Positions 35,695 through 53,871 of a stretch of DNA of 64,000 bases are shown piece by piece. This DNA is from Granulosicoccus antarcticus IMCC3135 (GTDB lineage: Bacteria > Pseudomonadota > Gammaproteobacteria > Granulosicoccales > Granulosicoccaceae): positions 4,584,501 to 4,648,500 of the forward strand of contig NZ_CP018632.1 in the NCBI RefSeq assembly GCF_002215215.1, in the 5' to 3' direction. Numbering within the stretch: position 1 is the first letter of the stretch; each line of letters opens with the position of its first letter. The notes below the pieces were generated by a model that was not told the DNA's origin, made no database searches, and was given only the letters and a program-made list of their open reading frames with translations. A program made the translations under genes and the position numbers.

Positions 35695-36402
35695 TCAGTC
35701 GTCGAGAAAGAAATCGATCAGACGACGGGTCAATGCCTTCTCCGGATCAATATTTGGCCACACGGCGTAGACACCCATATCCGGCACGCCCCACTCGGGC
35801 AGAAGCTGGACAAGACTGCCCGAGGCGACCTCCTCTTCGATCTCGTCGAACGGGAGAAGCCGAAAGCCTAATCCCGCAAGGAGCGCGGATTTTGCCGAAC
35901 CGATAGTGCCCACCTCGAGGCGAATATTCTCAGGCTTGAACGGAACAGACACGCCATCACACACGAAGGTATCCGTATTGGGCAGGCTTGACATCGCGAT
36001 GTAGTCGCAAGCCGCAAGATCTTCGAACGTCTTCACCGCCGGGTACAAGCGGGCAAAACTCCAAAGCTTCTGACGCAATCGTGCTCGCCCACCCCAGGCC
36101 GGCATCGTGATGTGCAGTGTACCGACGGGGTCGTCGCCAACAGCCGTCAATGCATCGATGGCCTCCTCGCCTGCGGCGACCATCCGGCGGGCGGGCGACA
36201 GCGCGGTCTGACCCTCGGCGGTCAGGGACATCGAGTGCGTTGAGCGGAAGAACAGCGCCGTACCCATCTTCTGAGCCTCAAGCCGGGAAAGGTGATGACT
36301 GACAACCGACGTCGAGAGCTTCAAGCGACGCCCCGCTGCGCTAAGACTACCTGTGTCGGCAACAGCGACGAACACCGCTAGTCCGCGATAGCTATCGATC
36401 AT
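35695..36402 (-). pseudogene. LysR-family regulator with internal in-frame deletion
   Basis: A 235-residue LysR protein, about 60 shorter than normal. The winged helix is intact (YRGLAVFVAVADTGSLSAAG, LFFRSTHSMSLT). The effector domain runs to FARLYPAV, then jumps to KTFEDLAACDYIAM; the usual block between these points (first ligand-binding strands, SDR..DL..EGFD..R.G region) is missing, roughly 55 residues. The frame stays open, so a protein may be made but ligand sensing is probably lost. It diverges from the broken SnoaL-like gene, its likely former target. Confidence 0.7.
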
Positions 36403-36501
36403 CTTTCCAATCCTTCGAAATGTCTTTTAGCCAAATACTGGCTATTCGAGACGGGGCGCCAAGCCTATCCCTATCGTCAGAGCTGTCTACCAGAGAACAC
36501 T

Positions 36502-36629
36502 ATGAAACGCAGAACTTGATCAAGACTTCAGTGGGCGCCGCACTGGCATTGACCCTTGGACAACACGCAGGAGCACAGGAATTGGACGATCAGACACAGG
36601 TGTATACGACGCTCAATACCCGCGCATAG
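36502..36629 (+). pseudogene. Signal-peptide fragment of a secreted SnoaL-like protein (5' part)
   Basis: ATG 36502 begins MKRRT then stops; the neighbouring frame continues LIKTSVGAALALTLGQHAGA, so a one-base frameshift splits a clear signal peptide. The coding remnant runs into the IS21-family element at 36630. The rest of the gene appears on the other side from 40291. Continuing from this side into the downstream frame needs a second frameshift, so the gene is decayed as well as interrupted. Confidence 0.65.
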
Positions 36630-36893
36630 TTGCCGGGGAGCTAGTGCATTATAAAACAACCCTGCTCATCACTTCTGTTCAGGGTTCCAGGTTAGTTTGT
36701 TACCGATCCTCTGATTCGCGTGACACAGACTCAATCAACTGATAGGAAGGAATGGCCGTGTAGAAAGACGCGACGCCAGTCCTGATTTGACGGTCCGATC
36801 TGACGCCGCATCCCCAACCGTGTTTTCACACAGCCAAGTGAAGTATCGCACTTCATTAGGTTTCAATCCAGAGCTACCCGGCAGGGATTGCCG

Positions 36894-37394
36894 ATGGACG
36901 ACCTGGACACTGCACGGCGCTACCACTGCGCTCGTTGCCACCAACCGGTCATTATCTGCCGCCACTGTGATCGAGGCAATATCTACTGCTTCGATGGATG
37001 CGCCCAGGCTGCAAATAAAGAACGCTGCAAACGAAACGCAAAACGCTACCGACGCAGTCCTAAAGGCAGGCGTAGCACTGCCGCCCGTCAACGTCGTAAC
37101 CGGTTGCGTAAAGCAATGCTTGAATCGGATCTCGAGTCGAGCAAACAACCCCCGCTCACGCTAAAGCCACCTGACTCAGAACCGAGTGCAACACCCTGCG
37201 ATTCACCCATAGTAACGCACCGGGGTTCCGTCGAGGAGTCCGGCAGTGCTCCACTGATATCCAGGCCAACACAGTCTCGTTTTGTTTACTGCAACGGGTG
37301 TCAACGTGCCTGCAATGAGGCTATGAGAATCGATTTCCTGCGAACAACACGACATCACTCTCGACATCGGAATTACAAAGGGACACCACCATGA
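36894..37394 (+). CDS. IS21-associated zinc-ribbon accessory protein
   Basis: A 166-residue protein with an N-terminal cysteine array (YHCARCHQPVIICRHCDRGN, IYCFDGCAQ) followed by a basic stretch (NAKRYRRSPKGRRSTAARQR) and a less ordered tail with CNGCQRACNEA. Such small Cys-rich proteins accompany one subgroup of IS21 transposons; their role is not established but DNA binding is plausible. AGGGA precedes ATG 36894. It overlaps istA by 4 bp. Confidence 0.75.
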   Translation: MDDLDTARRYHCARCHQPVIICRHCDRGNIYCFDGCAQAANKERCKRNAKRYRRSPKGRRSTAARQRRNRLRKAMLESDLESSKQPPLTLKPPDSEPSATPCDSPIVTHRGSVEESGSAPLISRPTQSRFVYCNGCQRACNEAMRIDFLRTTRHHSRHRNYKGTPP

Positions 37395-38932
37395 CGATTC
37401 ATGCTGAGTTGCATAGCCAGATTCTACGGCTTCACTTTGTCGAGCACTGGGGTGTCAATACCATCGCCCGCCAGCTGCATATTCATCACAGCGTGGTTGA
37501 ACGTGTACTGAGCCAGGTTGGTGTGCCACAATCTGAGCGAACCGAGTCACGATCGATACGCGATCCCTACAACGACTTCATCGTAGCCACGCTGGACAAG
37601 TTCCCCGATCTGACCGCTACTCGCCTATATGTGATGGCATGTAATCGCGGGTATAACGGGTGTTCCAGTCACTTTCGTGCTCGCGTGGCGGAGCTGCGTC
37701 CCCGGAAAAATCCGGAGGCCTTCCAGCGTCTCAAGACTTTTCCAGGAGAACAAATGCAATGTGACTGGGGCTCATTCGGTCATCTGCAAATCGGCCGGGC
37801 CAAGCGTCCGTTGATGGCCTTTGTGATGGTGCTTTCCTGGAGCCGCATGATCTTCGTACGCTTCTATCTTAACGCACGCATGGAGAGTTTTCTGCGGGGA
37901 CATGTTGCTGCCTTCGAGCATCTCGGCGTTGCTCGAGTTGTATTGTACGACAACCTGAAATCGGCTGTCATTCAACGCCACGGTGATGCGATCACATTCA
38001 ATCCCGAACTGCTAAAACTCTCGGCACACTATCGTTTCGAACCGCGCCCCTGCGCACCGTACAGGGGGAATGAGAAGGGCCGAGTTGAAAGAGGAGTTCG
38101 TTTTATACGCGAGAATTTCTTTGCGGCCCGTGACTTCCGTGATCTGGATGATCTGAATAGACAGGCCGACCAATGGTGCACTGAGCACAGTACCCAACGC
38201 CCTTGCCAGGCGGATACATCAATCACGGTCGGTGAAGCGTTTGAAAAGGAGAAGGAGCACCTGATTGCATTACCGGACAATCCGTATCCAGCCGATGATC
38301 GGGTCAGTGTGTCCATCGGAAAAACACCGTACGCACGCTACGATCTCAACGATTATAGCTTGCCACACACTCATGTGCGTCGCGTGCTGACAGTACTTGC
38401 CTCGATGGGCACGGTGCGAATCACTGATGGTGCCAAGGTGATTGCCAGCCATGTTCGCAGTTATGGTAAAGGCGAACAGATTGAAGATCCTGCGCATCTG
38501 CAGGCACTCGTTAACTACAAGCGTCGGGGGCGTGCACACCGCGGCCAGGATCGGCTTTCGCAGTCTGCACCGAGCAGTACTGCACTACTGACACAAGGCG
38601 CCAAGCGTGGCTACCGGCCTAGCCAGGTGGTTGCCCAGCTACTGAACCTGCTGGACAGCTACGGGGCACAGGAGCTTGAACACGCCATTGCAGAGGCATT
38701 GAGACAACAGGTTCCACATCCCAATGCTGTGCGCATTGTGCTTGAACGACGGCGTGATGAGCACAACCGTCCACCACCACTGATCGTACCCTTGCCAGCT
38801 AACGCACGCGCTAATCACATTGTCGTGCGCCCGGGCTCATTGGATTGCTATGACCAGTTGAGCGACAACGACAACGACAACGACAACGACAATAGCGTGC
38901 CGGGAGAGACAGATGACGACTCCATTAAATAG
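37391..38932 (+). CDS. istA: IS21-family transposase IstA
   Basis: A 513-residue DDE transposase. An N-terminal helix-turn-helix (EHWGVNTIARQLHIHHSVVE) precedes the catalytic core, with Asp in MQCDWGSFGHLQ, Asp in VLYDNLKSAV and Glu in NEKGRVERGVRFIRENFF. The C-terminal Mu-transposase-like beta domain includes TPYARYDLNDYSLPHTHVRR. Near its end a GACAAC hexamer repeat encodes alternating Asp-Asn. It overlaps istB by 20 bp. Confidence 0.95.
   Translation: MTIHAELHSQILRLHFVEHWGVNTIARQLHIHHSVVERVLSQVGVPQSERTESRSIRDPYNDFIVATLDKFPDLTATRLYVMACNRGYNGCSSHFRARVAELRPRKNPEAFQRLKTFPGEQMQCDWGSFGHLQIGRAKRPLMAFVMVLSWSRMIFVRFYLNARMESFLRGHVAAFEHLGVARVVLYDNLKSAVIQRHGDAITFNPELLKLSAHYRFEPRPCAPYRGNEKGRVERGVRFIRENFFAARDFRDLDDLNRQADQWCTEHSTQRPCQADTSITVGEAFEKEKEHLIALPDNPYPADDRVSVSIGKTPYARYDLNDYSLPHTHVRRVLTVLASMGTVRITDGAKVIASHVRSYGKGEQIEDPAHLQALVNYKRRGRAHRGQDRLSQSAPSSTALLTQGAKRGYRPSQVVAQLLNLLDSYGAQELEHAIAEALRQQVPHPNAVRIVLERRRDEHNRPPPLIVPLPANARANHIVVRPGSLDCYDQLSDNDNDNDNDNSVPGETDDDSIK
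38864..38893 (+). repeat. Hexanucleotide tandem repeat in istA
   Basis: Five tandem units of GACAAC (last unit GACAAT) encode Asp-Asn repeats in the acidic tail of IstA. Copy-number change would keep the frame. Confidence 0.85.
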
Positions 38933-39704
38933 TGAATTACAACAACGCGCCCTGGCCTTGAAACTTCATGGCCTTCTAGCACATTGGGATGAACTCTCAA
39001 AGGATCAGATTGCCTGGATCCCCTCTTTGCTGCAGTGGGAAGAGGTAGAACGAACACAGCGCGGCCTTGAACGACGTCTAAGCAGCGCTCACATTGGGCG
39101 CTTCAAGCCACTGGCAGACTTCGACTGGCAATGGCCTGAACAATGCGACAAAGGCGCCATCTCGGAGCTGATGAATCTGGAGTTTATTCACGAGACAAGC
39201 AATATCATACTGATCGGTTCAAATGGCTTGGGCAAATCCACTGTGGCTCAAAACATCACGCATGAAGCGGTGATGCAAGGTCATACCGCGTTGTATGTCA
39301 ATGCTGCCGAAATGCTTGGAGATCTGGCATCACAGGATGGTGATAACGCGTTGCGACGCCGGCTCAGATATTACGCTCACCCCTCATTGCTGGTCATTGA
39401 TGAGTTGGGCTATCTGTCCTATGGCGATCGACATGCGGATCTTCTATTTGAGATCGTCAACCGTCGCTACGAGAAGAAGCCGATCATTGTTACTACCAAC
39501 AAACCGTTTAGCGAATGGGCATCCATGTTCCCCAACAACGGCAGTGTGGTCTCCATTGTTGATCGACTGGTGCATCATTCAGAAATACTGGTGATCAAGG
39601 GTGAATCGTATCGAGTCCATGAGGCCAAAAAAAGAGCAGCTTCAAAGAAAGGGACCCGAGCCAAAGTGACAAGAACGCCCAAACCAAAAGGCAAAGACTC
39701 ATGA
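38913..39704 (+). CDS. istB: IS21-family helper ATPase IstB
   Basis: A 263-residue AAA+ protein of the IstB/DnaC type. Walker A is GSNGLGKST, Walker B is LLVIDELGYLS, and the sensor region reads PIIVTTNKPFSEWASMF. It assembles on target DNA and activates IstA. The C-terminus is strongly basic (KKRAASKKGTRAKVTRTPKP). It overlaps istA upstream and the acidic accessory gene downstream. Confidence 0.95.
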   Translation: MTTPLNSELQQRALALKLHGLLAHWDELSKDQIAWIPSLLQWEEVERTQRGLERRLSSAHIGRFKPLADFDWQWPEQCDKGAISELMNLEFIHETSNIILIGSNGLGKSTVAQNITHEAVMQGHTALYVNAAEMLGDLASQDGDNALRRRLRYYAHPSLLVIDELGYLSYGDRHADLLFEIVNRRYEKKPIIVTTNKPFSEWASMFPNNGSVVSIVDRLVHHSEILVIKGESYRVHEAKKRAASKKGTRAKVTRTPKPKGKDS

Positions 39705-40210
39705 ACTCACGTTGTGTTGATGTGGCCTTCTACTGGACGCCAGAGGAAGCTGCCGCCATTGTTGATTATCTTGACCGTTTGCGCGATACGGTTTGGGAGC
39801 TCTACAGCGAGGACATCATAGAGTGCCGCACGCCGGAGCTTGATGAGCAATGTGATCCACGCCAGCGGCATCTTTGTTTTGACGATGAAATAGACCGAAT
39901 GGCAGGGGATGATAAACAGGAATCGACCTCATGTAACCAGTCCGGTAGAACCTCACAAGAGCCGGGTGTGATGAACGACAAAACCAAACTATGGGACGCA
40001 CTGCCATCAATCGACGCTCTGTCCTCACTGAGTGACGAGGATATCGGTGAAATGCATAATTTGCTCCGTGCGCTATTGCACGCCTGCGAAGAACTCTACA
40101 AGGATCCGATAAGGCGCATGGGCGAACAAAGACATCAAGAACTTCACCCCCCGTGGAAGCGTGGCCTGTCCCGATCGTCAATGCCCAACTGGGACGACGA
40201 GGACTTCTAA
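39701..40210 (+). CDS. IS21-associated acidic accessory protein
   Basis: A 169-residue protein starting on an ATGA overlap with istB. The N-terminal block FYWTPEEAAAIVDYLDRLRD resembles small proteins found at the end of some IS21 operons. The remainder is acidic with possible helices (LSDEDIGEMHNLLRALLHAC) and ends PNWDDEDF. Role unknown. Confidence 0.6.
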   Translation: MNSRCVDVAFYWTPEEAAAIVDYLDRLRDTVWELYSEDIIECRTPELDEQCDPRQRHLCFDDEIDRMAGDDKQESTSCNQSGRTSQEPGVMNDKTKLWDALPSIDALSSLSDEDIGEMHNLLRALLHACEELYKDPIRRMGEQRHQELHPPWKRGLSRSSMPNWDDEDF

Positions 40211-40233
40211 CAAAGACATGCTTTTCTAGCATC

Positions 40234-40253
40234 TGGATCCTGCGGGGTCCAGT
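40234..40253 (+). terminator. Hairpin at the right end of the IS21-family element
   Basis: CTGGATCC / GGGTCCAG 8-bp stem (one G-T pair) with TGCG loop lies 24 bp past the last gene of the element. No clear T-run follows. Confidence 0.45.
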
Positions 40254-40290
40254 GTCAGGCAGTCTCATTTATTGAAAAACTCTCCGGCAA

Positions 40291-40876
40291 ATAGCCGCGC
40301 TTTTGATCCAGCAAAGACAACAGGCAAGCCTGGACACCGTCATGGCTTTCATGGGCGCGATGGGGGCCGGTGAGATGGAAAAGATGATGTCACTGATGGC
40401 CGACAACATGGTCTGGCACAACGAGGGCGACAAGAGCATGCCATGGATCGGACCCTGGGAAGGCAAAGAGGCAATCCTGAAGTTCCTGCCCGTCTTCTGC
40501 GAGAATTTCCAGACGACTCAATGGGAAAACACTGATGCATTTGCCTCGGGTGACACTGTCGCAGTCTTTGGAAAAATGAACGGGATCACAACACATTCGG
40601 GCAAGGAAATCGGTGAATTCACATTCGCTCTGCGAGCCAAGGTTCGCGACGGTCAGGTCGTCCTCTGGCACTGGTTTGAAGACAGCTTCGCCGTTAGGGA
40701 TTGTGAAATAATTAAGTATCAATTTTCAGGTGTTCCTGCGCCTGTCCGGCAAGGCGTGAGAAGGGCGAATAGCCGGCTATTCAACCGCCGAACAACGCAG
40801 CAGGGCAGGATGCAGGGACGACTGAAAATGATAGTTAATTGTTTCACGATCCCTTAGTCAGGCGTTTCACGGTTAA
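40291..40876 (+). pseudogene. SnoaL-like domain of the interrupted secreted protein (3' part)
   Basis: From the IS edge the frame reads IAALLIQQRQQASLDTVMAF, then a full SnoaL-type cone fold (GAMGAGEMEKMMSLMADNMV, NEGDKSMPWIGPWEGKEAIL, LRAKVRDGQVVLWHWFEDSF). At codon ...FAV a 157-bp MITE enters and replaces the natural end. Taking out the MITE and one TTA copy gives ...DSFAVSQAFHG and a stop at 40874-40876, just before the AGGA of the next gene. So this was the first gene of an operon with the lipoprotein gene. As it stands it lacks a start signal and its native C-terminus. Confidence 0.75.
40697..40853. mobile_element. 157-bp MITE-like element
   Basis: The ends GGGATTGTGAAATAATTAAG and the complement of the right end (GGGATCGTGAAACAATTAAC) match at most positions, and homology continues inward through TTTCAG and CCTGC for over 45 bp per arm. 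The centre is the perfect palindrome GAATAGCCGGCTATTC (40767-40782). Flanking direct repeats are TTA (40694-40696 and 40854-40856). No coding capacity; it must be mobilised in trans. Confidence 0.8.
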
Positions 40877-40889
40877 AGGAATTTCTCAT

Positions 40890-41765
40890 ATGCTTAATAC
40901 ACGAACCCTGCTCCCGATTGGCCTTGTCGCACTTGCGCTGGTTGGCTGCTCAGATGATGATGATAATTCCAGCAACACCACACTGGAACCGACACAGACA
41001 GAAAGAGCACTTGCCGTACTCGATAGCATCGCCTCTGGCGATATCACCGACTTTACCGCTTTCGTCAGTGCTGACAACTACACACAGCACAACCTTGGAT
41101 TCCCGGATGGTAGAGCAACCCTGTCAGAGGCTATTGATTCCGGCGCACTGAGTGGCACCACTGTCGAGAATGTTAGAGTCTTTGAAGACAATGACATCGT
41201 ATTCCTGCACTCCATCTACGGCGGAACCTGGAACGGTGGCGTACCACAGGTCGGCTTCGACGTATTCCGTTTCGAAGAGGGTCAGGTCGTTGAACACTGG
41301 GACAACCTGGCTAACGTTGAAGATGATGGTGACGATTCCACCCAGACAAATGGCACATTGACGATCGATACAACAGTCGATACAGAAAGCAGTCGAACAC
41401 TCGTAGCGAACACGATGCAAGCACTGTTCATCAACGGCGAGTGGAGCACGGTCACCGACTACTTCGATGAGGAAAACTACCAGCAACACAGCGTTGGTGC
41501 AGGCACCGACTTCACCGGTATTTCACAAATTGCCGCCAGCATCCCTGAAGGCAGCCCTTTCTATTCCTCAATGGAATACCTGTACGCAGACCATGACTTC
41601 GTACTGACAATGTCAGAAGGCTTCCCCGATGCTGACACGGGATTGAGCGATGCCTATTACGACCTGTTCCGGGTTGCTGACGGCCAGATCGTCGAGCACT
41701 GGGACATCATCCAGAGCATTCCGGATGAAAGTACCTGGGCCAATTTGACATCCTCCCCTCCCTGA
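40890..41765 (+). CDS. Lipoprotein with two SnoaL-like domains, 3' end altered by IS insertion
   Basis: A 291-residue predicted lipoprotein: signal MLNTRTLLPIGLVALALVGC with lipobox LVGC, then an acidic linker (SDDDDNSS). Two tandem SnoaL-type domains follow (~30-150 and ~165-285), each ending in a similar phrase: FRFEEGQVVEHWDNLANVED and FRVADGQIVEHWDIIQSIPD. AGGA precedes ATG 40890. The last six residues and stop (LTSSPP) come from a TnpB-type IS that begins at 41745; without it the gene would end ...TWANVNQV. The loss is small, so the protein is probably functional. Ligand unknown. Confidence 0.78.
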   Translation: MLNTRTLLPIGLVALALVGCSDDDDNSSNTTLEPTQTERALAVLDSIASGDITDFTAFVSADNYTQHNLGFPDGRATLSEAIDSGALSGTTVENVRVFEDNDIVFLHSIYGGTWNGGVPQVGFDVFRFEEGQVVEHWDNLANVEDDGDDSTQTNGTLTIDTTVDTESSRTLVANTMQALFINGEWSTVTDYFDEENYQQHSVGAGTDFTGISQIAASIPEGSPFYSSMEYLYADHDFVLTMSEGFPDADTGLSDAYYDLFRVADGQIVEHWDIIQSIPDESTWANLTSSPP

Positions 41766-41787
41766 ATAAAGGGGATTCCTACGGCGT

Positions 41788-43026
41788 TCAAGCACATGCC
41801 TGAATCACTTCGGTGGGTTCCTGCTTCACTGGGGCTGCCTCAATTGCATGTTCGTGCAATTCAGGTCTGACGTCCCCTCCACAGGCCATCACGGCGTGTC
41901 CCGCCGCTACGATATTCTTTGCCGCATTGACATCGGCATTCTCTGCATGCCCACAAGACACACAGCAGAAGCTCTCTTGAATTTTGCGGTTCTCTTGCGC
42001 TACATGGCCACAGCCTGAGCATTGCTGACTGGTGTACTGAGCCGGCACCACAATCAAATCACCACCCACCCATTTGAGCTTGTAGCTCAGCTGTCGACGG
42101 AATTCACCCCAGCCTTGATCGAGAATTGCTCGATTGAGACCCGATTTCGCCTTGACGCTTTTTCCTGGAGCTTGTCGGGTGCCAGAAGCCGAACGAGACA
42201 TATTGCTGACCTTCAGGTCTTCGATACACACCACTGCGTGGTTTTGACTAATGAGGTGTGATTTCTGATGCAGGTAGTCTGCTCGGACATTGGCTATTCG
42301 AATATACAGGCGGGCGATTTTCGCTTTCTGTTTTTTCCAATTGCGGGAATACTTGCACTGACGAGCCAGGGCTCGCTGTGCGTGTGCCAATTGTCGTCGA
42401 AGTTGTGCAAAACTGTTCTTCGGCAAATGAATGACACCGTCGCTTTGTGCTGCAAAAACGGTGATGCCCAAGTCGAGACCAATCGCTGTTGTGGATGGGT
42501 GTAGAGGAGTCTCAACCTGTTGTGCAGTCTGGACAGAAAAAAACCACTTACCACCTCGCTCACTGACGGTGATATTGCGTAGCGTGCCGATGACATTACG
42601 GCTGTTTCGGTAGCGCATCCAGCCTAACTTAGGTAGAAAAATACGATTGTTGGCCTGATCAAGCTTGAACTGTTTGGGTTCTGGAAAGCGAAAGCTATTA
42701 CCACGGCCTTTCTTTTTGTACTTAGGGAAAGCAGCGCGTTTGGCAAAGAAATTCTGATAGGCCCGATCAAGATCTTTGAGCGATTGCTGCAACGCTTGAG
42801 CAGGTGCTAGTTGAAGCCACAGCGTGTCTTTATCTTTACGCCAGATTGTCAGATTTTTGCACATCTGGGCATAGCTGATGTACTTGAGTTCGGCCTTATG
42901 GTTCTCTTGCTGAAGTGCCAATGCCTTGTTGTAGACGAACCGGGAACTACCTGCAAACTGCCACAGTTGGCGGGTTTGTTCACCATTGGGGCGTAGCTCG
43001 AATTTGAAGGCTTGTAGACGTTCCAT
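41788..43026 (-). CDS. tnpB: TnpB RNA-guided nuclease (IS605 family)
   Basis: A 412-residue TnpB. RuvC residues are in GLDLGITVFAAQSDG (Asp), VVCIEDLKVSNMSR (Glu) and NADVNAAKNI (Asp), all present; the zinc ribbon is CSGCG...CVSCG. ATG 43026 starts MERLQAFKFELRP, the usual family start; an open frame to 43119 is rejected. It should cut DNA guided by an omega-RNA made from its own 3' end and the right end of the element. The predicted guide would be the flank beginning ATTGGCCCAGGTACTTTC on the minus strand. Confidence 0.93.
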   Translation of the reverse strand: MERLQAFKFELRPNGEQTRQLWQFAGSSRFVYNKALALQQENHKAELKYISYAQMCKNLTIWRKDKDTLWLQLAPAQALQQSLKDLDRAYQNFFAKRAAFPKYKKKGRGNSFRFPEPKQFKLDQANNRIFLPKLGWMRYRNSRNVIGTLRNITVSERGGKWFFSVQTAQQVETPLHPSTTAIGLDLGITVFAAQSDGVIHLPKNSFAQLRRQLAHAQRALARQCKYSRNWKKQKAKIARLYIRIANVRADYLHQKSHLISQNHAVVCIEDLKVSNMSRSASGTRQAPGKSVKAKSGLNRAILDQGWGEFRRQLSYKLKWVGGDLIVVPAQYTSQQCSGCGHVAQENRKIQESFCCVSCGHAENADVNAAKNIVAAGHAVMACGGDVRPELHEHAIEAAPVKQEPTEVIQACA

Positions 43027-43173
43027 GAACTGAATAATACACTGGACCGATAGAGAGTATGCCACAGACATCCATTGAATACTGTTTTTATAAACAGCTA
43101 TCCGAGAATGTGTTATCACTATCGAATCAAGGAAATCTTTGAGCTGGACGAGAAAGAGGCTTCGCCTCTAGCG

Positions 43174-45010
43174 ATCGGGATAGGGGCCGACCGAAGTCGG
43201 GCCCCTCCCACACCACCCGGCATGCGGGTCCGCACCGGGCGGTTCGAGAAGTTGAGGTCATGAGAGACGAGGTACACCGAGGCTATCGTAGTACTTTACC
43301 GATAGAATAAGGTGCAATCCCGAAAGGCTGTTGTGCCAACAACGTTTGCTAGAGCAAGCGATGAGCTTAGCCAACTCCTGCGAGGCACCGAGACGACGTA
43401 AAGCGTCATACGCCGTACGGCCGCGTCGCCAGTGCTTGAGCTGGATAGCCCGCAATCGGCGTCGTATCCAGCCATCCAGATCACGGAAGATTTTCGGCGT
43501 TTGTGCCAGATGAAAGTAAGCCTTCCATCCGGGAATGAAACTCCGAAGTTCTACCGCAACTTGGACAAGGCTGCGACCACCGACGCGACGTGTGATCTGC
43601 CGGATGCGCTGCTTGAACTTGACGATTGCCGAGGGCGATACCGCGATCTTGACCGTGTTCCCACTCCACCGCCGTAAGCAGTAGCCCAGAAATTTACGAC
43701 CAAACACGGGCCCGACTGCAGTCTTTGCCTCGTTCACCCGAAGGTGCAGTTTTGCATACAGCTTCCGAAGAGAGCGCAGTACCCGTTCCCCCGCCCGTTG
43801 ACTACGAACATACACATTGCAGTCATCGGCGTATCGGGCAAACTTGTGTCCGCGCCTCTCCAGAGCCTGATCCACTTCGTCCAACAGCACATTAGCCAGT
43901 AACGGTGAAAGAGGGGAGCCTTGTACGGTTCCCTCCAAGCGTTCCACCAATACGCCGTTGATCATGACGCCAGCTCGAAGAAATCGTCGAATCAACCGAA
44001 GAACGGCCTTATCGTCGATTCGCTTACTCAGCCGGTCCATGAGAACGTCGTGATTGACCCTGTCGAAAAATTTCTCAAGATCCAAATCAACCACCACCTG
44101 ATAGCCTTGTTGCACACACTGCTGTGCATGGAGCACAGCGTCATGAGCACTTCGACCCGGGCGAAAGCCGTAGCTGAATTCCGAAAACGTCGGGTCAAGC
44201 AGGGGTTGCAGTACTTGCAACAGTGCCTGCTGGATCAGGCGATCAATGACGGTGGGTATCCCCAATTCCCTGGAGCCTCCACCCGGTTTCGGAATTTCCA
44301 CGCGTCGCACGGCCGATGGCCGATAACTACCGCGCAGCAATTCATCCCGGATCACTGGCCACTGGGTTTGAAGATATTCAATCGTTTGAGTGATTGAAAG
44401 ACCGTCTACGCCCGCACTACCTTTATTGGCTTTGACGCGTTTCCACGCCTCCACCATGTTCTCTCGCGAGAGCGCCTGCTCAAGCAGATTCTCCCGCCCC
44501 AAGCTTTCGGTTCGTTGAGGCACCGACACCGCTTCACCGCGTGCAGGAAACTTTCGGGCTTCACCCGTTCGTCTCTCACTGCGCCTCGATCTCCCGAGTT
44601 TCTGGTGCTTTGCTTTGTCGAGCGTCATCGTCTTCTAGCTCTCCTTCTCGTTTAGCCCTTCATCGCATGATGACGACTACTATGGCCTCTGCTGACTTCT
44701 CACTCCGACCAGACGATCGTCGCCCTTTCAGGCACAAGGTGAGATCTCCCCGGGTAAGACTGCAATCCTTCCCCACACAACCGCCGAATCTACATTATCT
44801 CCCTTTGACCACAAGAGCTTCGCGATGATAGGCCCGCTCGCCCTGGTTGATAACGCCTCAATATTCGGTTCTTGTTCATCGGCTCGTGGTTTCGCTAGAC
44901 ACTTCCTCCCCACGCTTGGTCGCCCTTGCGCAGTTGTGCTTCACTTCGGTCGCTATGGTCAGCTTCCGGGAGGACTTTCACCTCCAAGATTGCACCCATG
45001 CCGGGCGCAC
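43174..45010 (-). mobile_element. Group II intron (1837 bp)
   Basis: The 5' end reads GTGCGCCCGGCATGGGTGCA on the minus strand from 45010, the classic bacterial group II start. Domain V lies about 43211-43246 (GAACCGCCCGGTGCGGAC...GGGTGGTGTGGGAG pattern) and domain VI ends ...CCCTATCCCGAT at 43174. The intron-encoded protein is inside domain IV. It is inserted 8 nt after the left-end hairpin of the TnpB element, which fits the preference of group IIC introns for terminator-like hairpins. Confidence 0.85.
43258..44628 (-). CDS. ltrA: Group II intron reverse transcriptase/maturase
   Basis: A 456-residue intron-encoded protein. RT palm motifs are visible: VVDLDLEKFFDRVNHD, GTVQGSPLSPLLANVLLDE and the catalytic FARYADDCNVYV. 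A maturase domain follows (~350-440), and it ends GVPRLS. No HNH endonuclease domain is present, so retrohoming would use other priming. The frame is intact, so both splicing and mobility are possible. Confidence 0.95.
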   Translation of the reverse strand: MTLDKAKHQKLGRSRRSERRTGEARKFPARGEAVSVPQRTESLGRENLLEQALSRENMVEAWKRVKANKGSAGVDGLSITQTIEYLQTQWPVIRDELLRGSYRPSAVRRVEIPKPGGGSRELGIPTVIDRLIQQALLQVLQPLLDPTFSEFSYGFRPGRSAHDAVLHAQQCVQQGYQVVVDLDLEKFFDRVNHDVLMDRLSKRIDDKAVLRLIRRFLRAGVMINGVLVERLEGTVQGSPLSPLLANVLLDEVDQALERRGHKFARYADDCNVYVRSQRAGERVLRSLRKLYAKLHLRVNEAKTAVGPVFGRKFLGYCLRRWSGNTVKIAVSPSAIVKFKQRIRQITRRVGGRSLVQVAVELRSFIPGWKAYFHLAQTPKIFRDLDGWIRRRLRAIQLKHWRRGRTAYDALRRLGASQELAKLIACSSKRCWHNSLSGLHLILSVKYYDSLGVPRLS

Positions 45011-45076
45011 CTATCCATCCCCGCCCTGAAGGACGGGGCTTTCCGCGCGTTGAGGTAAATCAAGTTTGATAATCGT

Positions 45077-45114
45077 GTCAGGGCAGATGACGACTGCCTG
45101 TCGTCTGGCCTGAC
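45077..45114 (+). terminator. Hairpin downstream of the lipoprotein gene's original end
   Basis: Long stem GTCAGG-x-CAGA-x-GACGA / TCGTC-TG-x-CCTGAC with a small loop. It lies just after the reconstructed stop codon of the lipoprotein gene (45067-45069), so it probably was that gene's terminator before the TnpB element entered. Confidence 0.6.
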
Positions 45115-45183
45115 GCTGGTTTCAGAGCACTACTGACATTTTCCAATGCGAAAGCCTTTCCCATGTTGGGAGACTAAAACACT

Positions 45184-45516
45184 ATGACACATAAATTCGC
45201 ACTGGCAGCCACAGTTGCATTACTCGTAAGCTGCGCCACAACCGTTGCACAGGCACAAGAACTCTGTGCACCTGATATCGACTTCAAAAGCGCCGTGGGT
45301 CACGACCAGGCACCAAGCTCGCTTGCGACTCTGAACTCGGCATTTAAATCGGCTTCCAAAAACGATCAGAACGATCTGGTATTCGTCTATTCAAAAGTTA
45401 CCAGTGATACTGGGGTGTCAGCCGTTGTTGACTTGTTTCGGGTACGAGACAATATTCTGGTAGAGCATTGGGATGTCGTGCAGCAAGTGCCTGCGGATGA
45501 AGAGATTTTCGCATAG
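45184..45516 (+). CDS. Small secreted SnoaL-like protein, probably shortened
   Basis: A 110-residue protein with signal peptide MTHKFALAATVALLVSCATT and cleavage near AQAQ-E. The mature part has only the C-terminal half of a SnoaL domain: NDLVFVYSKVTSDTGVSAVV then DLFRVRDNILVEHWDVVQQV, close in wording to both domains of the lipoprotein at 40890. The N-terminal helices of the fold are reduced to a short Ser/Ala/Asn-rich linker, so an internal deletion is likely. GGGAGA lies about 14 nt upstream. Confidence 0.6.
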   Translation: MTHKFALAATVALLVSCATTVAQAQELCAPDIDFKSAVGHDQAPSSLATLNSAFKSASKNDQNDLVFVYSKVTSDTGVSAVVDLFRVRDNILVEHWDVVQQVPADEEIFA

Positions 45517-51880: not shown

Positions 51881-52674
51881 CACATTGGGAGGTTCACGCC
51901 GTCAAATATGCGGATCGCAATGCGCGTACTCGTGCCGACAGCTTCCTGTTTGATGACAACCACGACGCGCCGCACGCTATGGACTATTACATATGGGTCT
52001 TGCGTCGCGGGCCCGAAGTGATTGTCGTGGACACCGGGTATGACAAGGCGGAAGCAACGACGCGCAACCGCCCCATCCGGATGGAACCCGCTGAGGCATT
52101 GGCCCCTTTCGGTATCAAGCCCGAGGATGTGACAACCGTCATCGTCACACATTTGCATTATGATCACGCTGGTGGGCTGCACCTGTTTCCCAATGCCAAA
52201 CTGCATATGCAAGCCGCCGAGATGGCCTATGCGACTGGCCCGTGCATGTGTCACGACACCCTTCGCATGCCGTTTACATCCGATCATGTCTGCGAAGCAG
52301 TCAAACGATTGTATTCTGGTCAGGTCGTGTTTCATGACGGGGATGCGCAAGTGGCGGATGGTGTCACGGTTCATTGCATCGGCGGTCATTCACGCGGCTT
52401 GCAATGTGTGCGGGTGCTAACCGACGCGGGCTGGCTGGTTCTGGCATCGGACGCAGCCCATTACTATGAAAACTTCATGGCGCAAAAGCCATTCCCGATT
52501 GTGGTTGATTTGCAAAATATGCTCGACGGATTTGCGACGCTAAAACGTCTGGCAAGCAGCCCTGAGCTGATTGTGCCCGGCCATGATCCACTGGTCCGCC
52601 AGCTGTTTCCTGTCGGGATCGCCCCCCACATCACTCGGCTGGATCAAGGCCCCATGAAAGAAATTCCACATTGA
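51877..52674 (+). CDS. MBL-fold metallohydrolase, AHL-lactonase-like
   Basis: A 265-residue metallo-beta-lactamase-fold hydrolase. Metal motif THLHYDHAGGLHLF, then His in GGHSRGLQ, Asp in LASDAAHYYENF and His in VPGHDP give the two-metal site of AHL-lactonase-type enzymes. In this operon a sugar-acid lactonase is the likeliest role; quorum-signal cleavage is the alternative. The last codon and stop are supplied by the TnpB-type IS that starts at 52671; without it the gene would end ...EIPQG and overlap otnK by 4 bp (ATGA). Confidence 0.85.
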   Translation: MTHWEVHAVKYADRNARTRADSFLFDDNHDAPHAMDYYIWVLRRGPEVIVVDTGYDKAEATTRNRPIRMEPAEALAPFGIKPEDVTTVIVTHLHYDHAGGLHLFPNAKLHMQAAEMAYATGPCMCHDTLRMPFTSDHVCEAVKRLYSGQVVFHDGDAQVADGVTVHCIGGHSRGLQCVRVLTDAGWLVLASDAAHYYENFMAQKPFPIVVDLQNMLDGFATLKRLASSPELIVPGHDPLVRQLFPVGIAPHITRLDQGPMKEIPH

Positions 52675-53871
52675 CATCCTCCTCTCCCTGAAGAAGAGGA
52701 TTCCCACTAAGGAGCGCAATGTCCTGCGCCGAGACGGAGAATATTTCGAGCCGCGTTAACGTCACGATCATGCTGAACACCACATTCAACACATTGCCAG
52801 TCTCTTACCGAAAGAGCTCTTATTCCCTGCGGTCCGCACAGGCTTCCGCATTCGGAGCACGCTCGCGTGGTATAGGCTTCATTGATTTCTCGGTAGACAA
52901 TACCGGCCTGCTGGCTCTTGTAGTCGAGCATTGTCTTGAAGCTGGCCCAGCTTGCGTCAAGCACAGACTTGGCCATCGTGGTTTTTGTCAGCTTCGAGCT
53001 ACTGACATCTCCCACGTAGATCTCGCCGCATCGATTGACCAGATGGCGGCTGAATTTATGCAGGGCATCTGCTCTGCGATTCCTGATTTTTGCGTGAATC
53101 GCCCGGGTGCGCCGCTTGCGTCTTGCCCGTTGGGCCTTGGCAAGCTTGCCCTCCAGGTGGCGATACCAACGTCCCTCCAGCACGGTGCCATCGCTGCAGG
53201 TGGCAACGGTTTTCAGACCAAGATCGATACCAATACTATCTTGCCCCTTGGGACACGTGCGATCAACCGAGACACAGATGCAAAAATACCATCGACCGCG
53301 AGCATCCTCAGTGAAACAACCTGCCCTGAACTTGTAATTGGCAAGACCGAAGCTGTCCCATACCTTGAAGTGAGAACCTGCAAAGAAGACCTGCCCGTGC
53401 TTCCAGTGAGCTGCCCGAGCCTTGAAGGGCACCCATCCCAACGAGCGTTTATCGCCAAAACTCTTGCGCCACCTCAGCTTGCGACGCTTTGCCGAGTAGC
53501 GTTTACTGGCGTAGTGTTCGGCCGTTTCCTGAATCGTACTGCTGCCAATGTGCTCGAACTGCTTCGACGCACCCACCGTGTAAGCAGAGAAGTCAAATCC
53601 GGACATCCACCGACCACGCTCCCGAATCATACGATCAGACAGCTCGTTGCAGTAGTTCCATACCTGATTGACTTCAGCCGCCATGCTGCGCAAAAGCGGC
53701 GCGTGGCGATCTTTTACCCTGACTTTGAGAACCTTGATGTATGTTGATTTCACAGCTCGATTGTATAACCGTTCCGCCCCCATTCACCCAGAAGGGTCAA
53801 CAATCACTAGATATATATACAGCATTCCAATTCCTCCCCGCCCTGAACGACGGGGTATCCTTGGAATTGAA
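52671..53871 (-). mobile_element. IS200/IS605-superfamily TnpB-only element
   Basis: A 1201-bp element on the minus strand. The right end begins TTGACATCCTCC (plus strand) with hairpin CCTCT/AGAGG; the left end has hairpin CCCCG/CGGGG (53834-53853) and stops at ...GGAATTGAA. Both ends are homologous to those of the element at 41745, with compensating base changes in the right-end stem. It is inserted 3 bp before the otnK start codon and separates it from the rest of the operon. Confidence 0.82.
52707..53783 (-). CDS. tnpB: TnpB nuclease with atypical RuvC-II motif
   Basis: A 358-residue TnpB. RuvC-I Asp is in SIGIDLGLKTVATCSDG and RuvC-III Asp in HDRDVNAARNI; the zinc ribbon is CSECG...CVECG. 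The place of the usual catalytic Glu (IEDL-type) reads YVGDVSSSKL, lacking it; a Glu in REINEAYTT could substitute. TnpB proteins with a relocated RuvC-II Glu are known. Only distantly related to the TnpB at 41788. Predicted guide from the right flank: TGTGGAATTTCTTTCATG. Confidence 0.9.
   Translation of the reverse strand: MGAERLYNRAVKSTYIKVLKVRVKDRHAPLLRSMAAEVNQVWNYCNELSDRMIRERGRWMSGFDFSAYTVGASKQFEHIGSSTIQETAEHYASKRYSAKRRKLRWRKSFGDKRSLGWVPFKARAAHWKHGQVFFAGSHFKVWDSFGLANYKFRAGCFTEDARGRWYFCICVSVDRTCPKGQDSIGIDLGLKTVATCSDGTVLEGRWYRHLEGKLAKAQRARRKRRTRAIHAKIRNRRADALHKFSRHLVNRCGEIYVGDVSSSKLTKTTMAKSVLDASWASFKTMLDYKSQQAGIVYREINEAYTTRACSECGSLCGPQGIRALSVRDWQCVECGVQHDRDVNAARNILRLGAGHCAP

Follow-up and report, generated by a model that had tools for sequence, protein, structure and literature searches.

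The window analysed here is a stretch of 64,000 nt from the genome of Granulosicoccus antarcticus IMCC3135, an Antarctic marine bacterium (bases 4584501-4648500 of one contig; this genome is labelled G000 below). Between positions 35695 and 45516 of the window, a LysR-type regulator gene and a cluster of three exported SnoaL-like genes (SnoaL1, SnoaL2 and SnoaL3) have decayed through an IS21-family element, a miniature inverted-repeat transposable element (MITE) and an IS200/605-type TnpB element, and also through internal deletions and a frameshift. The TnpB element in turn holds a group IIC intron. This presence of the intron inside the transposon is a recurrent, target-specific association that an earlier first-pass annotation of the locus had missed, and no other part of the locus is as informative.

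The TnpB element lies on the minus strand, with its right end at 41745 and its left end at 45054, and has eight copies in the genome, to which we refer by letter where needed. Its tnpB open reading frame (ORF; 41788..43119, minus strand) encodes a member of the RNA-guided endonuclease TnpB family (Pfam OrfB_IS605 and TNB; NCBIfam guided_TnpB). The left end abuts the target GTAAA (45055-45059, plus strand); at the left ends of the eight copies this target reads GTAAA six times and ATAAA twice, and the right flanks are unrelated. With a TnpB protein, hairpin ends, a fixed left-end target and no target duplication, the element is of the IS200/605 type. With the IS200/IS605 TnpB elements treated in the available portion of PMC8612924 it shares the TnpB protein, the hairpin ends and the absence of target duplication; unlike them it is split by an intron, which is at the left end in the window and, in relatives, 3 nt short of the right end. 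We found no tnpA in the ORF list of the window's element, which tnpB and the reverse transcriptase (RT) gene of the intron fill (its remaining ORFs were unscanned), and copy H holds both tnpA (Y1_Tnp) and tnpB. The left-end hairpin, with an 8-bp stem (45019..45038, minus strand; fold of -16.3 kcal/mol), is the presumed stem-loop target of the intron. Copy F (L123, G000:C1:1052387-1054063) is itself interrupted by an element encoding a 465-aa DDE transposase.

The intron spans 1837 nt (43174..45010, minus strand; GTGCGCC...CCCGAT), its boundaries being fixed by the comparison of filled with empty TnpB copies. It has the same orientation as tnpB and lies upstream of it, 8 nt beyond the left-end hairpin; those 8 nt are the 5' exon ATGGATAG (45011..45018, minus strand), whose GATAG is the intron-binding site 1 (IBS1). 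On splicing, the exons would join at 45011/43173 (minus strand) as GATAG followed by CGCTAGAGG. The intron encodes a 456-aa reverse transcriptase/maturase (43258..44628, minus strand; Pfam RVT_1 and GIIM), in which the Pfam scan matched no endonuclease domain and whose best solved relative is the GsI-IIC RT (446.6 bits). Domains D1-D4 of the group II ribozyme core match Rfam RF01998 and RF02001 above their gathering scores (44655..44929, minus strand); all Rfam matches in the window are to group II introns and none to group I, which separates the element from an IStron. The exon-binding site 1 (EBS1) is the loop CUAUC (44827..44831, minus strand), the complement of GATAG. A class-C-type RT, a ribozyme core, a stem-loop 5' of the insertion site and EBS1-IBS1 pairing together identify a group IIC intron. 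A second family of group II RTs, with 45% identity, is present elsewhere in the genome (G000:C1:235483-236739 and 7626653-7627909).

The left end of the TnpB element is common to eight long matches, five of which are filled by the intron at the identical base, the other three being empty. A ninth left end (L127) retains only the first ~105 nt of the intron, and three related left ends that carry GGGGATGTAAAC in place of GATAG are free of it. The intron copy counts are lower bounds, as 40 of 67 first-look candidates were scored. Filled hosts are 70-97% identical to each other and their introns 97-100%, and it is because the introns are so much more alike than the elements that hold them that we take the intron to have entered repeatedly. 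The window and copy B have introns with 0 differences in 1837 nt inside TnpB hosts that are 92.8% alike, and their identity ends at -26 and +12 relative to the intron. Copy H and the window agree at 97.7% in the intron and at 70.5% in the host, and the host of H (filled) is 99.4% like that of G (empty). The window/B and G/H patterns are those that homing predicts. The intron of copy H (L125, G000:C1:7485047-7487963) is interrupted by ~2.9 kb containing a 687-aa serine recombinase (Resolvase, Recombinase).

These same comparisons bear on another explanation, in which the intron entered a TnpB element once and the composite was then transposed as a unit, as an IStron-like chimera, the likeness of the introns being due to stronger constraint or to gene conversion. 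The hosts of B and C are 97.2% alike and both filled, copy H has the tnpA and tnpB genes, and the same kind of transposon plus intron is present at two places in E. coli. Moreover, the intron of copy C (G000:C1:7159969-7161878) equals that of the window over its first 765 nt, differs from it at 33 of 1837 positions overall and is on the whole nearer to copy D, and is thus a mosaic of window-like and D-like sequence. Movement of a composite may be the source of some copies, but alone it is insufficient: it does not account for hosts G and H being 99.4% alike with one empty and one filled, for the host of H being only ~70% like the other filled hosts, or for a 7.2% difference between the hosts of the window and B around introns without a single difference. 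We consider it improbable as the general explanation.

How the intron chooses its site was examined in a domain I alignment of 13 introns (that of the window and 12 related introns with readable 5' ends; the remaining G142 and G523 copies and the incomplete L191 were excluded). Each ungapped stretch of five columns was scored against the last five exon bases, with 2000 permutations. The best of 215 columns, the loop at intron nt 180-184, gave 58 of 65 pairs, against 45 for the runner-up and a permutation maximum over columns of 52; in the window this loop is CUAUC, the exact complement of GATAG. At the same column, 15 intron copies outside the set, six of which were the remaining copies just mentioned and four of which came from E. 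coli, gave 68 of 75 pairs. The address thus appears to be written in the EBS1 loop, which differs among copies in this genome. All four CUAUC copies are at left ends. Copy L126 (contig position 3025672), which carries a large internal deletion, lies in the right-end hairpin of another TnpB family, preceded by GGATGT and followed by CAATTCC, and its EBS1 is ACGUC; it rules out the idea that every intron copy sits at a left end. Right ends of this type occur without an intron in eight further copies and once in the window, where positions 52671-52707 form a second, intron-free IS200/605 right end of the family that hosts L126. Between the introns of the window and L126, EBS1 differs at 3 of 5 positions and the remainder at 17 of 760 (Fisher p 1.5e-4). 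Copy H7483 combines the left-end site GATAG with EBS1 ACGUC, which pair at 3 of 5 positions, and is likely to represent an intermediate of an address switch. A fragment at L128 (G000:C1:2424131-2424209) consists of a 79-nt 3' scrap of intron followed by CAA, as at right ends, with no recognised transposon sequence upstream.

In Polaromonas and E. coli, relatives of this intron occupy right ends, with CAA as the 3' exon. In an RT tree of 17 rows, the five rows at IS605 ends (three from this genome, one from Polaromonas and one from E. coli) form one branch (support 100/99) that excludes the 11 terminator rows and the single tandem row. A first tree, in which the IS605-end rows did not form one group, contained a row in the wrong frame (G523_T, on a branch of ~10 units) and was discarded; the tree reported was rebuilt without this row and without a near-duplicate Stutzerimonas row. 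When Polaromonas and E. coli serve as outgroups, the likely course of the switch is from right end to left end, copy H marking the intermediate step. Wider sampling for the clade yielded few candidates: matches came from 8 of 398 genomes when the threshold was E 1e-120 and from 3 of 340 at E 1e-150 (G. antarcticus in both), from 0 of a further 48 genomes, and from 3 and 8 viral contigs, one of them common to both. A protein search with the RT drew 7959 matches, the best 120 of which were listed without their surroundings in the genome. The 5' junction was readable at 12 of the 18 loci from the genome search. On plasmids, there were 15 intron places on 14 stretches (two in L186), of which L207 gave no clear reading and L210 none, and among five E. 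coli loci the junction was read at L213 and at none of L214-L217 with the pattern used. At position 4957 of L186, from Polaromonas, one intron has a second inserted behind its D5-D6 tail, and the EBS1 of the second matches 4 of 5 tail bases.

Another reading of a IIC intron behind a hairpin is that it simply follows the habit of its class, with the hairpins at left and right ends acting as ordinary terminators. Group IIC introns do follow terminators, according to the accessible parts of PMC4424553 and PMC3522654, and by manual reading 21 related introns follow a hairpin whose tail is rich in T. The targets here, however, have no T run: ATGGATAG stands behind the stem in 8 of 8 aligned left ends in place of a terminator's T run, and GAGGATGT is likewise without one. 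In addition, the EBS1 loops of terminator-associated introns are mostly A-rich, whereas those of the introns at IS605 ends are not and match transposon sequence, and these introns form their own clade. Ordinary terminator targeting is therefore, in our judgement, quite unlikely.

We conclude, with a probability of roughly 80%, that the intron belongs to a IIC clade whose speciality is the terminal hairpin of IS200/IS605-type elements, and that its address was retuned through EBS1 in this genome. The occupied sites, the empty alleles, the discordance between hosts and introns, the match of EBS1 to the exon and the support for the clade carry this reading. Group IIC introns require a DNA stem-loop, on which their ribonucleoproteins dock, with EBS1 pairing to the bases that follow (PMC10190682, in the part available), and the hairpins at IS200/605 ends serve single-stranded transposition (PMC7923331, likewise in part; the element described there lies beside, and not inside, an intron-bearing cassette array), so that a folded transposon end would offer the intron a ready target. 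The intron ribonucleoprotein may accordingly recognise the folded hairpin together with the 5-nt exon stretch read by EBS1, and reverse splicing into this site would spread it from TnpB element to TnpB element, with removal probably by splicing from the tnpB transcript. The older address of the clade would be the right-end hairpin with GATGT before and CAA after the intron, read by EBS1 ACGUC or ACAUC; in the sub-lineage found here, a change of EBS1 to CUAUC would have opened the left-end hairpin with GATAG before and CG after it.

Several points weigh against this conclusion. Among 369 genomes of the class, the left-end junction pattern was found in G. antarcticus alone (0 of the 368 others), and beyond this genome the clade is represented by few independent sites, namely Polaromonas, two transposon insertions in E. 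coli and IncY plasmids. The mosaic in copy C implies recombination among intron copies, so that some of the homing signal could stem from gene conversion instead. The EBS1 loop was spotted by eye before the test over all columns, the hairpin could double as an RNA terminator and so leave room for the class habit, and self-splicing and retromobility of the intron are predicted from its sequence alone.

The position of the intron within the transposon may matter to its host. According to the part of PMC8612924 available, the TnpB guide RNA consists of the right end and ~16 nt of flank, so that an intron at the right end would split it, 3 nt ahead of the guide, and one at the left end would leave it whole. 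Because right-end insertions interrupt the stretch from which the guide RNA is made, there is a link between group II introns and TnpB, from which Cas12 is presumed to descend (PMC10711439, in part). Taken further, the clade could be an obligate parasite of TnpB transposons, whose right-end copies make guide RNA assembly, and perhaps TnpB activity, dependent on splicing, and whose escape to the left end by a 3-nt change in EBS1 spares the guide RNA. We offer this as a tentative and rather doubtful extension. A conflict between intron and guide RNA exists in IStrons, and if the extension were true, this would be its group II counterpart, caught in mid-switch within one chromosome.

Comparison with described systems places the intron near several of them. 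With the IIC introns at terminators and attC sites (PMC4424553 and PMC3522654, as far as available) it shares the RT family, the lack of a matched endonuclease domain, the GTGCG start, a target made of a stem-loop and a short EBS1-IBS1 pairing, and self-spread; it differs in that its target is an IS200/605 terminal hairpin without a T run, its EBS1 matches transposon sequence and its RTs form a separate clade. IStrons, which join a group I intron to IS605-type genes (PMC4227781, in part), are analogous in having a self-splicing intron inside an IS200/605-type element, but here a group II retroelement encoding its own RT would enter an element that is already complete, and is not fused to it as a chimera. 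Retargeting through EBS changes and a preference for mobile elements are known from the group IIB introns of Thermosynechococcus elongatus, which likewise form families within one genome (PMC2882425, in the part available); those introns use a long target, in contrast to the hairpin target, the single EBS1 switch and the apparent intermediate copy found here. Association with palindromic repeats is shared by group II introns near repetitive extragenic palindromic sequences in Pseudomonas putida (2 of 9 in the table of PMC1525189), although the case described in the accessible text includes neither an IS200/605 end nor EBS1 matching. Searches of an open-licence library, together with available parts of PMC4424553, PMC3522654, PMC2882425, PMC7923331, PMC4227781 and PMC1525189, gave no report of a IIC intron located in an IS200/605 end; primary work on the targeting of terminators and attC lies outside that scope. 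The review among these names terminators and attC sites as the targets of IIC introns (PMC4424553, in part). The ends of transposons would add a third kind of hairpin target, a new one for the class. Because copies with the old guide ACGUC and with the new guide CUAUC occur together in a single genome, along with an intermediate that is mismatched to its site, the change of address could be tested by a swap of five bases.

The other features of the locus concern the decay of the SnoaL cluster. The IS21-family element (36601..40319, plus strand; 3719 bp, ends TGTATACG...AAAGACA) is identified by Pfam and NCBIfam matches, with istA (37391-38932) and istB (38913-39704), TG...CA ends and a short duplication. 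Of its seven copies in the genome, five measure 3719 bp and two 3737 bp, and 7 of 7 are flanked by a matching 5-bp duplication, here ACAGG (36596-36600 and 40320-40324). The first-pass annotation had correctly seen an IS21 element interrupting SnoaL1 and had given its duplication as ATAG; all seven copies remain alike well beyond the ends then proposed, so that ATAG falls inside the element. Two additional ORFs within it (36888-37394 and 39701-40210) have no Pfam match.

The MITE (40697..40853, plus strand; 157 bp, GGG...CCC) is flanked by TTA at 40694-40696 and 40854-40856. It is short, with inverted repeats and a fixed duplication, and is present in at least 27 near-full copies of 156 to 171 bp in the genome, a lower bound because 40 of 84 candidates were scored; the same TTA or TAA stands on both sides in 27 of 27. 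A scan of ten partial-match sites for end motifs, with ORFs listed at one of them, revealed no clear autonomous partner. Three partial matches to the MITE family are present in a sister species (genome G012).

SnoaL1 encodes an exported SnoaL-like protein and is split into a 5' part (36502..36600, plus strand) and a 3' part (40325..40696, plus strand) whose final codons have been moved to 40857-40876. At E 1e-10, a search with the 3' part drew matches from 21 of 57 genomes, G. antarcticus included, although in this genome and G012 many of them fall on the MITE part of the query and not on SnoaL; 12 loci were kept, one of them the window's own, leaving 11 orthologues. When the IS21 element is removed, ...LGQHAGAQELDDQTQ continues into ASLDTVMAFMG... 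in frame and without gaps against these 11. Joining the flanks of the MITE gives ...DSFAVSQAFHG*, and all 11 orthologues examined end in AVS[QK]AY, where this locus has AVSQAF. The proposed MITE with its TTA duplication and the restored ending FAVSQAFHG are thus borne out, the relatives having the gene end that was predicted. SnoaL1 is also frameshifted directly behind its MKRRT start, which the earlier annotation did not include; its pseudogene state therefore existed or arose independently of the insertions.

SnoaL2 (40890..41744, plus strand; present ORF to 41765) is exported, as proposed, and has two SnoaL domains (Pfam); its 3' end is cut off by the TnpB element. The genome copies set the boundaries of this element and of the intron within it, in agreement with the earlier description of a TnpB-type insertion sequence replacing the end of SnoaL2 and interrupted by a group II intron. 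Joined without the element, the flanks read ...ESTWANVNQV*, to which ESDWKNQNGKF* and similar sequences correspond in six relatives and one paralogue, the relatives ending in NGK[FWL], NGKFGNLSP or SGKF. WANVN fits WKNQN and the reading register agrees, but the final QV* does not fit, so this predicted ending stands in part. The closest SnoaL2 orthologue, 62% identical, is from the same genus (L162, genome G012). SnoaL3 (45184..45516, plus strand) is a short remnant, as had been suggested, with an export signal, no match in the Pfam scan of the protein and a C-terminus resembling that of SnoaL2.

The first proposal, that the locus matters for at least four nested insertions which dismantled a secreted SnoaL system and whose succession can still be read, gains from these results: every named element is present, and the gene ends at two joins agree with relatives. 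The IS21 element, the MITE and the TnpB element nevertheless lie side by side, and the nesting is limited to the intron in the TnpB element, a pair that may have reached the locus as one unit; the order of insertion is hence not readable here from one genome. As the duplication of the IS21 element was also misread and pseudogenes full of insertion sequences and MITE copies are commonplace, we regard this view of the locus as very unlikely to be the informative one.

The LysR-type regulator (35695..36402, minus strand; 235 aa, Pfam HTH_1 and LysR_substrate) has lost ~55 residues of its ligand domain in frame, as seen by alignment with three relatives (291-297 aa as delimited in this analysis), which confirms the internal deletion noted before. 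Its pairing with SnoaL genes is found elsewhere in part: with 1.5 kb of flank examined per locus, a LysR gene stands beside 5 of the 11 SnoaL1 orthologues (L238, L239, L243, L245 and L246), and a divergent LysR gene accompanies the SnoaL2 relatives in L015, L165 and L166, but none adjoins the closest SnoaL2 orthologue (L162). In L238 and L243 the LysR gene is divergent and one further exported-looking protein lies between it and SnoaL1; that of L238 is SnoaL-like. In another relative (L170, G002:C114:100177-101400), a terminator-type IIC intron is located ~700 bp downstream of a SnoaL2-like gene on the same strand.

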